This document shows positions 29,759-32,243 of a DNA stretch of 64,000 bases, one piece after another. Under the pieces are notes generated by a model. That model was not told where the DNA came from. It made no database searches and saw only the letters and a program-made list of their open reading frames with translations. The position numbers and the translations under genes were made by a program. The DNA is from Dolichospermum flos-aquae CCAP 1403/13F (GTDB lineage: Bacteria; Cyanobacteriota; Cyanobacteriia; Cyanobacteriales; Nostocaceae): positions 4,965,334 through 5,029,333 of the forward strand of contig NZ_CP051206.1 of the NCBI RefSeq assembly GCF_012516395.1. Direction: 5' to 3'. Each line of letters opens with the position of its first letter. Position 1 is the stretch's first letter.

Positions 29759-30189
29759 AATATTTTTTATGTGTGGTATTTGGAGGTTACAGACAAAAAA
29801 GTCTGTGTGGGGAAATTAAGAATATTTTAAGACTATATGGGTCATTGGTCATGAATCCTCGGCTAATACTTAATAGAAAAATATTTTGGTCTAGCGCCGC
29901 TTCGCGGAAGTTCAACGGGCGCTTATAAACCGCGTCTACACTTACTTGTGAAATTCCTTAGTCCGTTTTAACGGACTTGAGCTATGAGACAGGGAATTCA
30001 TTCCCTGGCGTATTTGCAAGCTTCCCATATTTGTCTGTTCATGATCAATATAATCATCAATCAAATTCGGAAATAGCCTTTTTTCCTCAATACATAAAAT
30101 GATTAATTTTGACAGTGCATAAATCCTAAATTACTGATTTTCAGTAAATCAAGGTAGAATGTCCTATAAACGTGCTAACTACCAAGATT
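29759..30189. repeat. Intergenic region with dispersed hairpins (29960-30007)
   Basis: This 431-base gap between divergent genes contains GCGCCGCTTCGCGGAAG-like palindromic DNA and two hairpins: AGTCCGTTTTAACGGACT at 29960, identical to one at 22372, and CAGGGAATTCATTCCCTG at 29990. The remainder is AT-rich and should hold the promoters of both flanking genes. No gene is seen. Confidence 0.7.
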
Positions 30190-31959
30190 ATGAGCCTGTG
30201 CATCAATTCTAACTGCCCAAAGCCACAAAATCCCGATAATATCCTTTTTTGTCAAGCCTGTGGCTCGGAAGTCTTGCTACAACAACGTTATCGGGTACAA
30301 TGTCAGTTAGGACGGGGTGGCTTTGGTGTGACTTATGAGATTAACGAAGTCAGAACCAATCAGGCTAAAGTTCTCAAAGTCTTGATTAATAACAACCCTA
30401 AAGCCGTAGAATTATTTAAACAAGAAGCTGATGTTTTAAGTCAACTCCATCATTCCGGTATTCCTCATGTAGAATCAGACGCTTATTTTGAATATTATCC
30501 CTACAATAGCCAAAATCCAATTCATTGTTTGGTAATGGAAAAAGTTGTGGGAGAAGATTTAGAAAAATATATGCAAAAACGTGGTTTGCGTCCTATTAAC
30601 CAAACTACAGCTATAGAGTGGCTAAAAGATCTAATCATTATTTTAGAACAGGTACATAATAAAGACTTTTTTCATCGAGATATTAAACCACCTAATATTA
30701 TGTTGCGGTCTGAAAGTGCCGAATTGGTATTAATTGATTTTGGTACTGTGAGGAAGGTAACATCTACAGTATTTAAACAACAAGGTGGTGTCACAGGAAT
30801 AATTTCCGCAGGTTACACACCCTCAGAACAAATTAACAATAACGCCGTACCTCAATCTGATTTTTTTGCTTTAGGACGGACATTTGTTTATTTACTCACG
30901 GGTAAAGAACCACTTGACCCAATCATGTATGATTCCTATAATGAAAGATTAAATTGGCGGAATCATGCACCACAAATATCATCTATGTTAGCAGATTTAT
31001 TAGATGATATGATGCAGCGTTTATATAAAGATCGTCCTCAAAACTCCCATGAGATTTTGCAAAGAATAGCAGCAATAGAAAAAGCTTTACAATCACCAAA
31101 ACCTCAACCACCAAAACCCCAACCACCAATACCTGCCAATAACCTTAAAACCTTTAGTTTTGAAGTTGTCACCACAGACGCACGGGGAAATATCACCAAC
31201 CGACGCAACGCAAGCGCGAAATACTTTACAGAAGACTTAGGAAATGGTGTGACGTTGGAAATGGTGGAAATCCCAGGGGGAACATTTATCATGGGTTCAC
31301 CGGAAAACGAAGCAGAAAGGTATTCAAACGAAGGTCCCCAACATCAAGTTACTGTTCCCAGTTTCTACATGGGAAAATATGAATTGACACAGGTACAATA
31401 TCAAGCTATCATAGGAACTAACCCTTCCAACTTCAAAGGCGATAACCGCCCTGTTGAAAGAGTTAGTTGGAATAATGCGGTTGAGTTCTGTAAAAAGTTA
31501 AGTCAAAAAACAGGCAAAAACTACAGATTACCCAGTGAAGCAGAATGGGAGTATGCTTGTCGTGCCGGAACTACCACACCATTTTATTTTGGTGAAAGTA
31601 TTACTCCAGATTTGGTAAATTATAATGGTAATTATACTTATGCTTCTGCACCAAAAGGAAAATATCGTCAGCAGACCACAGATGTAGGAACTTTTCCCCC
31701 TAACTCTTTTGGTTTGTACGATATGCACGGTAATGTCTGGGAATGGTGTCAAGATGACTATAAAGATGATTATATAAACGCGCCTACAGATGGCAGTGCT
31801 TTGACAAGTCCAAGCCGGAGCGTTAAGCTGCTGCGCGGTGGTTCGTGGCACTTCACTCCTGAGGATTGCCGTTCTGCTTGTCGCGACCCCTACGATCTCG
31901 GCACCTACGACTACTATATTGGTTTTCGGGTTGTATGTAGTGGTGCGGCGAGGACTTAG
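30190..31959 (+). CDS. Serine/threonine kinase fused to FGE-like (CLec-fold) domain with DGR-type variable C terminus
   Basis: The 589-residue protein begins with a short Zn-ribbon-like segment (CINSNCPKPQ...FCQACGSE). A Hanks kinase follows: GRGGFG (41-46), HRDIKPPN near 162, IDFGTVRK near 183, TPSEQ. A Pro/Gln/Lys linker (~300-320) leads to an FGE-sulfatase domain: MVEIPGGTFIMGS, YRLPSEAEWEYACRAG, YDMHGNVWEWCQDD, LLRGGSW. True FGE needs two active-site Cys residues just after this point; here HFTPEDC keeps at most one, so oxidase activity is unlikely. Residues 554-576 have DGR variable-region features. The start is the ATG at 30190. It may sense ligands through a diversified lectin-like surface. 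Confidence 0.88.
   Translation: MSLCINSNCPKPQNPDNILFCQACGSEVLLQQRYRVQCQLGRGGFGVTYEINEVRTNQAKVLKVLINNNPKAVELFKQEADVLSQLHHSGIPHVESDAYFEYYPYNSQNPIHCLVMEKVVGEDLEKYMQKRGLRPINQTTAIEWLKDLIIILEQVHNKDFFHRDIKPPNIMLRSESAELVLIDFGTVRKVTSTVFKQQGGVTGIISAGYTPSEQINNNAVPQSDFFALGRTFVYLLTGKEPLDPIMYDSYNERLNWRNHAPQISSMLADLLDDMMQRLYKDRPQNSHEILQRIAAIEKALQSPKPQPPKPQPPIPANNLKTFSFEVVTTDARGNITNRRNASAKYFTEDLGNGVTLEMVEIPGGTFIMGSPENEAERYSNEGPQHQVTVPSFYMGKYELTQVQYQAIIGTNPSNFKGDNRPVERVSWNNAVEFCKKLSQKTGKNYRLPSEAEWEYACRAGTTTPFYFGESITPDLVNYNGNYTYASAPKGKYRQQTTDVGTFPPNSFGLYDMHGNVWEWCQDDYKDDYINAPTDGSALTSPSRSVKLLRGGSWHFTPEDCRSACRDPYDLGTYDYYIGFRVVCSGAART
31846..31935 (+). other. Predicted diversity-generating retroelement variable region (VR)
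   Basis: Codons 31849-31917 encode HFTPEDCRSACRDPYDLGTY and DYY. Sixteen of the 23 codons fit NNC or NNT derived from AAC/AAT (CAC, TTC, ACT, GAT, TGT, GAC, CCC, TAC, CTC, GGC, ACC, TAT), while the frame residues Pro-Glu, Cys-Arg-Ser-Ala and Arg are as in known DGR targets. It is followed by ATTGGTTTTCGGGTTGTATG, matching the usual non-mutated end (IMH). This is the codon bias expected of adenine-specific mutagenic retrohoming. The template and reverse transcriptase are not in the window. Confidence 0.72.
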
Positions 31960-32243
31960 TAGCCCTTTACACTCTTGCTCTTTTGCCCTCTTCTCTTTTT
32001 TTCTTTTCCCTTCTTAACCCACCGCCGTTAGGCGGAAAATATTTTTCTACAAAAAGCTGGTTTTGATGTCTGGATTCAGTGTAGCACAGATTTTTTATTT
32101 TGTCTGAATCAGGATTTCCAGGATTTAAGGATTTACAGGATGGAAGAAGGGGTGGGATTTTGAATGTTAGGAAATTCTGTTTATTCAAGATCCCAATATC
32201 CCCGACTTCTTGAAGAAGTCGGGGATATGAAATTTATCTAGAA
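31960..32243. repeat. Intergenic region: hairpins and dispersed GGATT repeat
   Basis: No gene is seen. A small GC hairpin CCGCC-GTTA-GGCGG lies at 32022-32035, about 60 bases after the kinase stop. From 32103 to 32141 runs TCTGAATCAGGATTTCCAGG and GGATTTACAGGATG, a repeat seen widely in Nostocales. At 32196-32228 the palindrome ATATCCCCGACTTCTT/AAGAAGTCGGGGATAT forms a strong hairpin between convergent genes and could stop transcription of rsgA, although there is no T-run. Confidence 0.65.

Follow-up and report, generated by a model that had tools for sequence, protein, structure and literature searches.

A stranded target of a cyanobacterial diversity-generating retroelement at the end of a kinase gene in Dolichospermum flos-aquae

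How does a gene come to carry a hypervariable end when the machinery that writes such ends is nowhere near it? In diversity-generating retroelements (DGRs), a reverse transcriptase (RT) and its partner Avd copy the RNA of a template repeat (TR), misinserting at A's, and the cDNA replaces a variable region (VR). The gene considered here lies in a 64,000-nucleotide stretch of Dolichospermum flos-aquae CCAP 1403/13F (the window; NZ_CP051206.1, positions 4,965,334 to 5,029,333). The original prediction, made from the letters of the window, placed a DGR-type VR at the end of a kinase–FGE fusion, with neither RT nor template close by.

The gene (30190..31959, +) encodes 589 amino acids from the ATG at 30190, or 595 from a GTG at 30172. 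Its product contains, in order: a four-Cys prefix (NF045510); a Ser/Thr kinase; a Pro-rich linker; and a C-terminal FGE/CLec-type domain. The kinase domain (30289..31062, +; PF00069, E=1.5e-30) includes HRDIKPPN and DFG, which we take to be protein kinase motifs. The FGE-sulfatase/C-lectin-type domain (31258..31935, +; PF03781, E=4.5e-58) matches the solved structures (PDB) of PvdO (3e-38), Treponema denticola variable protein 1 (TvpA, 2y3c; 9e-26), and FGE (1.5e-23), and the predicted fold encoded by the 3' end of the gene is of this CLec/FGE type. TvpA is a DGR variable protein and is not known to contain a kinase. Unlike these relatives, the window protein has the first Cys of the FGE Cys pair on a variable codon (alignment of paralogue L005 with L010, the window locus).

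The VR spans 31828..31952 (+), 125 bp of gap-free homology with the TR that Anabaena sp. 90 carries on its plasmid pANA02 (a TR/VR type that we label type-I). Relative to this TR, 18 of the 34 template A's are changed and none of the 91 non-A positions (Fisher p=9e-13); this confinement to A's is not chance. The substitutions (A to G, seven; A to T, six; A to C, five) all fall within the hypervariable codons, residues 554–577 (31849..31920, +). Comparison with the TR of a congener, G002, gives differences at 18/34 A and 4/86 non-A positions (p=7.7e-9). Two of those four lie at the repeat end and are present in 28/28 VRs compared; the other two are gone when the pANA02 TR serves as the reference. 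The segment 31828–31952 is a DGR variable region at the 3' end of a Ser/Thr kinase–FGE/C-lectin gene, and the A-only differences from a real TR bear the prediction out.

The finer claims fared unevenly. The codon positions 31849–31917 had been read correctly, and Cys-Arg-Ser-Ala and Arg, described as fixed, are indeed encoded, like GFRVV, by the non-variable part of the template. It had also been stated that 16 of 23 codons fit AAC or AAT templates: 16 of 23 do derive from A-bearing template codons, but only 13 of these are AAC or AAT, the others being GAA, TAT, and GAC. Similarly, of a supposedly fixed Pro-Glu pair, the Pro is kept in six of the seven VRs of this type in the genome, whereas the Glu comes from a variable GAA codon, matched in sister VRs by GAC, GGT, GGA, GGG, or CTT.

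Could ordinary diversifying selection on a binding surface, with no retroelement at all, have produced this pattern? Orthologues of the window gene, picked by identity of upstream and downstream DNA, are present in G003, G011, and G015. The G015 VR differs from that of the window at 22/34 A sites and 1/82 non-A sites, and the upstream 900 bp are 5.0% different; for G003, the values are 17/34, 3/82, and 2.8%. The G011 VR has 23 codons rather than 24, and its upstream DNA is 7.1% different. Changes at codon positions 1, 2, and 3 number 12, 9, and 2 in the VR relative to G015 (16, 14, and 36 in the remainder of the gene), and 8, 9, and 2 relative to G003 (remainder, 12, 7, and 23). In the last 44 codons of the FGE paralogues L005 and L006, a control pair assumed to be VR-free, the corresponding changes number 5, 1, and 25. 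The original prediction had held that changes spread evenly among strains would count against a DGR; they are concentrated at template A's and at codon positions 1 and 2, favouring DGR writing. Nonsynonymous changes do dominate the VR (14 codons relative to G015, with no synonymous ones), as selection would have it, but selection does not account for the 91 unchanged non-A template positions, silent ones included, nor for the AAC-run TR that a congener carries next to its RT and Avd. Selection as the sole cause is scarcely credible.

If inheritance was vertical, at least three of the four orthologue lineages must have been rewritten since their common ancestor, because all four orthologues differ in the VR. 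Yet a DGR RT is seen in none of the four assemblies that carry them (two of which are drafts). This suggests fast turnover of the DGR machinery over durable targets.

Where, then, is the machinery? The original prediction supposed that a DGR elsewhere in the genome diversifies the gene, and this part does not hold: neither a DGR RT nor a matching TR was found in the genome assembly (5.22 Mb, two contigs, 99.96% complete). The prediction had itself named the lack of RT and template from the genome as grounds for its rejection; that lack is what the assembly shows, though the strain comparison favours DGR writing. The assembly contains four RVT_1 matches (L001–L004), and neither these, nor a motif and family scan, nor a search with the G002 RT yielded a DGR-type RT gene. 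L001 and L002, which score 288.9 and 299.3 bits against TIGR04416 (just below the cut-off of 300), are group II maturases. L003 (C1:1003-1007 kb) is a retron-type RT of 757 amino acids fused to a C-terminal AAA_5 domain, and its closest NCBIfam matches fall below their cut-offs. L004 is truncated and nearest to Drt2 and group II proteins, with the motif IPQGGAIS versus PIGNLTSQ in the G002 RT. At E <= 1e-5, the G002 RT (P0001) retrieved only a 25%-identical maturase from the genome.

The search for a template in the same assembly ended similarly. BLAST with the VR, BLAST with the G002 cassette, and a pattern search found no type-I TR. The VR search (E up to 10) gave 16 places: seven FGE gene ends of the window's VR type, its own included; one 66% match in L008; and eight matches of 24 bp or less, with no TR-like full match among them. 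The pattern search picked up a single sequence: a TR of another type (C1:1876370), some 270 bp downstream of the caspase–FGE gene L017 (C1:1875.3-1876.5 kb; L017, L209). Within the repeat, this TR differs from its VR at template A's only, and no RT or Avd piece was found by tblastn in the 20 kb around the pair. To judge from these letters, the pair is undecayed and would fit recent or continuing DGR activity. The same caspase–FGE/TR unit recurs in genome G005 (87% identity over 681 bp), where the ORFs of at least 90 amino acids in the 9 kb listed include no RT. The VR at locus L014 belongs to a different TR, of the type found near the RT of G005; inside the repeat it shows a single non-A difference. 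L008 itself (C1:4907.7-4911.4 kb), a caspase–FGE gene with an in-frame TAG inside the FGE domain, is a decaying variable-protein paralogue.

Complete cassettes of the relevant kind do exist in relatives. In G002, a single contig holds two FGE genes with VRs, avd, RT, and an AAC-rich TR, in the order VR-VR-avd-RT-TR. Its Avd matches DivGenRetAVD (E=1e-42), and its RT, with the motif PIGNLTSQ, matches 8ub7 best among solved structures (5e-52), ahead of a group II intron RT (5e-23); we take 8ub7 to be the BPP-1 DGR RT complex. Outside the genus set, the closest relatives of the G002 TR and RT lie on pANA02, a 56-kb plasmid (NC_019429.1), with 98.3% DNA and 95.7% protein identity, and Avd and RT are annotated beside the TR there. 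Further genes of pANA02 encode a type I-D CRISPR-Cas set and two additional RT-domain proteins. A viral origin was considered and set aside: the exact TR stretch has no match in viral contigs, and the phage matches of the RT (best 15 of 31) are all below 60% identity.

The chromosome of D. flos-aquae retains a scar of such a cassette (C1:1126420-1128300), consisting of cassette flank, 27 avd codons, and then unrelated DNA. The first part (C1:1126420-1126834) comprises 415 bp, 96.9% identical to the pANA02 stretch between a VR gene and avd. After an insert of about 100 bp, the second part (C1:1126936-1127044; 109 bp, 96.3% identical to pANA02) includes the 5' end of avd, and these first 27 codons, identical in protein sequence (100%) to G002, are all of Avd that was found in the genome. 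There follows unrelated DNA of about 1.07 kb that includes DUF2442 and DUF4160 genes; the corresponding interval on pANA02 is 1.77 kb long and contains the remainder of avd, the RT, and the TR. The third part, from about C1:1128116, is the hydrolase gene that follows the TR on pANA02 (185 bp at 88.6% identity). The simplest reading of this arrangement would be cassette loss by deletion with replacement. The DUF2442/DUF4160 gene pair (C1:1127.0-1128.1 kb; L111:10355-10978) stands in place of the DGR RT and TR as if it had replaced them. Thus, the window gene resembles the pANA02 system in its exact non-A match to that TR, and the genome resembles it in a scar 96–97% identical to the pANA02 flank and avd 5' end; the difference is that the whole cassette is present on the plasmid and deleted here.

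The absence of RT and type-I TR rests on a single two-contig assembly, and an unassembled plasmid could carry both. The VR might therefore still be diversified in trans by a DGR on a pANA02-like replicon missing from the assembly. It is on a plasmid that the nearest relatives of the G002 TR and RT sit; the window VR shows no non-A difference from that plasmid's TR; the L017 TR–VR pair is undecayed; and trans action is inferred for some loci of Thiohalocapsa PB-PSB1 (PMC10907252). However, the assembly is nearly complete, its 69-kb second contig (C2), examined as a possible pANA02 relative, shares just 181 bp with that plasmid and has no TR match, and the chromosomal scar marks the loss of one cassette. 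We regard continued diversification from such a plasmid as unlikely, and prefer deletion of the cassette. Because RT and matching TR are missing from the assembly, the sensor tail encoded in the window is probably frozen as last written.

The window VR has sisters. The genome contains 15 PF03781 places, and seven FGE gene ends share the type-I VR: L007, L009, L010 (the window), L011, L015, L016, and L019. Their fixed-codon DNA is nearly identical, and the codons between differ. Codons with a non-A change relative to the pANA02 TR number two each in L007, L015, and L019, three in L009, and four in the first 18 of L016; L011 has none in its first 18 codons, and only the window VR has none over its full length. 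Most of these changes sit at two sites, the third positions of template codons 16 and 18, that vary in the VRs of other genomes too; hence the sister VRs were probably written by several TR alleles, some having decayed since, as far as base patterns can tell. L019 (C1:206152-206424) is a 96-aa open frame with only the C-terminal third of an FGE domain. L029 (C1:1315.04-1315.12 kb), with a VR-type 3' flank (86% over 64 bp) beside a 15-bp exact match to the VR end and no FGE domain match, is perhaps the last remnant of another target gene.

Such a family of nearly identical fixed blocks raises another explanation, in which no DGR ever worked in this lineage and its VR alleles arrived from other strains or were exchanged between paralogues, through homologous recombination or gene conversion. 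Exchange between strains does happen: downstream of the L011 locus, 839 bp are 100% identical to G009, and the upstream DNA is 11.7% different. Recombination with DGR-bearing strains could thus have supplied VR alleles. Among 28 equal-length type-I VRs of the genus, however, all 378 of 378 pairs differ at 10 or more of the 34 A sites, which argues against plain copying, and no donor haplotype is seen among them. (The comparison took the 28 type-I VRs of the TR's length, setting aside eight of other length; the bases at 33 template A's across the 28 are A, 491; T, 182; G, 181; and C, 70.) Moreover, the chromosome holds a cassette scar with avd, and even imported VR letters would still have been made by a DGR somewhere. 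Recombination in a lineage that never had a working DGR is thus an improbable account, and rewriting by a cassette since lost is retained.

The 3' end of the window VR also fits. A fixed block, GGTTTTCGGGTTGTATGTAGTGGTGCGGCGAG (31921..31952, +), is followed by GACT, and the TR end differs: at this point 41/58 collected rows read AGGACT, and four of the five TR rows AGCA. (The collection, made by regular expression, kept 58 sequences, five of them TR-like, and missed some VR matches found by BLAST.) The end is IMH-like in VRs and IMH*-like in TRs. A fixed block with TR/VR divergence directly after it is consistent with replacement of the VR by cDNA. Farther on, 70 nt past the VR end, lies a GC hairpin, CCGCCGTTAGGCGG (32022..32035, +), which recurs behind some sister VRs. 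The original prediction gave its position correctly and supposed that it may be unrelated. Its recurrence makes a link probable, either to the VR or as a shared terminator: GC-rich perfect hairpins occur within 180 bp downstream in 13/57 collected sequences (TR rows included), 12 of them at offsets of 50–66, versus 1.15 expected from shuffles; under this strict rule, 44/57 have none. By analogy with phage DGRs, the hairpin may possibly be a cruciform cis element of the DGR, or alternatively a terminator.

Is D. flos-aquae alone in this? DNA of the window VR type is present at E <= 1e-8 in 14/16 genomes of the genus, this one included, whereas a full-length DGR RT (at least 63% identity) is present in five of 16: G002, G004, G005, G010, and G012. 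Nine of the 14 VR-bearing genomes therefore have no full DGR RT. Many of these assemblies are drafts, so single absences are weak; among genomes with one or two contigs (this one, G005, G008, and G011), three of four have no full RT. (Per-genome tables are complete for the searches with the G002 RT, the G002 cassette, and genus VR flanks; individual rows are among the matches listed.) The cassette leftovers differ from genome to genome: an avd 5' end here; an RT 3' piece in G007; and an RT middle piece with a stop in G014, where the VR is absent at the same threshold. Such differing leftovers point to separate losses of the machinery.

Together, these observations fit a general model. An Avd–RT pair would have copied the type-I TR RNA while randomizing the bases at its A's; the resulting cDNA would have replaced the VR up to the shared 3' block (mutagenic retrohoming). 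The cassette, chromosomal or plasmid-borne, would once have been functional in the lineage and was presumably deleted later, leaving the VR frozen. We hold it very probable that the window VR is a remote target rewritten from a type-I TR by a cassette that worked in the lineage and was then lost; it clearly belongs with the remote targets of a known cyanobacterial DGR, and is stranded. The model can be extended tentatively, in a form that may well be wrong, to an itinerant mutator: cassettes on plasmids or islands would visit, rewrite many chromosomal VRs in trans, and be lost, leaving at least seven tails frozen yet open to rewriting by any later visitor that brings the same TR.

Much of this has precedents. 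Vallota-Eastman et al. 2020 (PMC7517822) describe kinase–CLec remote DGR targets in cyanobacteria: 76 targets lie remote from the RT, and the cassettes are found on chromosomes and, in Anabaena sp. 90, on a plasmid. Like those remote variable proteins, whose N-terminal domain is a Ser/Thr kinase or caspase, the window protein has a C-terminal CLec domain with the VR at the 3' end of the gene. The same authors proposed that the variable tail acts as a ligand or partner sensor of the kinase, and by analogy the window tail may be a ligand- or partner-binding sensor. They also suggest that the diversification parts may be removed once a good variant has been selected, and give remnant cases: all3226 of PCC 7120, whose genome has two DGRs, and, in Anabaena sp. 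90, a remnant that consists of the RT only. Their 52 genomes, as described there, were chosen for complete cassettes; in contrast, the present genome has seven VRs of one type with no DGR RT or cognate TR found. In PB-PSB1 (PMC10907252), targets also lack an RT of their own, VRs match a distant TR at all non-A sites, and DGR parts are degraded. There, however, intact RTs exist at other loci or in structural variants; none was found here.

These two papers are the closest that we found, and no paper joining retroelements with Dolichospermum appeared in the literature searched; stranded VRs in Nostocaceae without an RT may be reported outside it. Known already are remote kinase–CLec targets, plasmid cassettes, remnants, and the idea of later removal (PMC7517822), and incomplete loci with trans action (PMC10907252). 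The present analysis contributes an exact template match between genomes, a scar, and, for one genus, a tally of genomes that have VRs but no RT; the phenomenon itself is of a known kind.

Searches for DGR targets usually start from an RT or are confined to genomes whose cassettes are complete, and can therefore overlook stranded targets where there is no RT. In this case the template was matched exactly to its target across genomes, and the deletion left a scar suitable for typing. The genus offers a natural experiment: have hypervariable sensors without their mutator been fixed as useful variants, or are they decaying?
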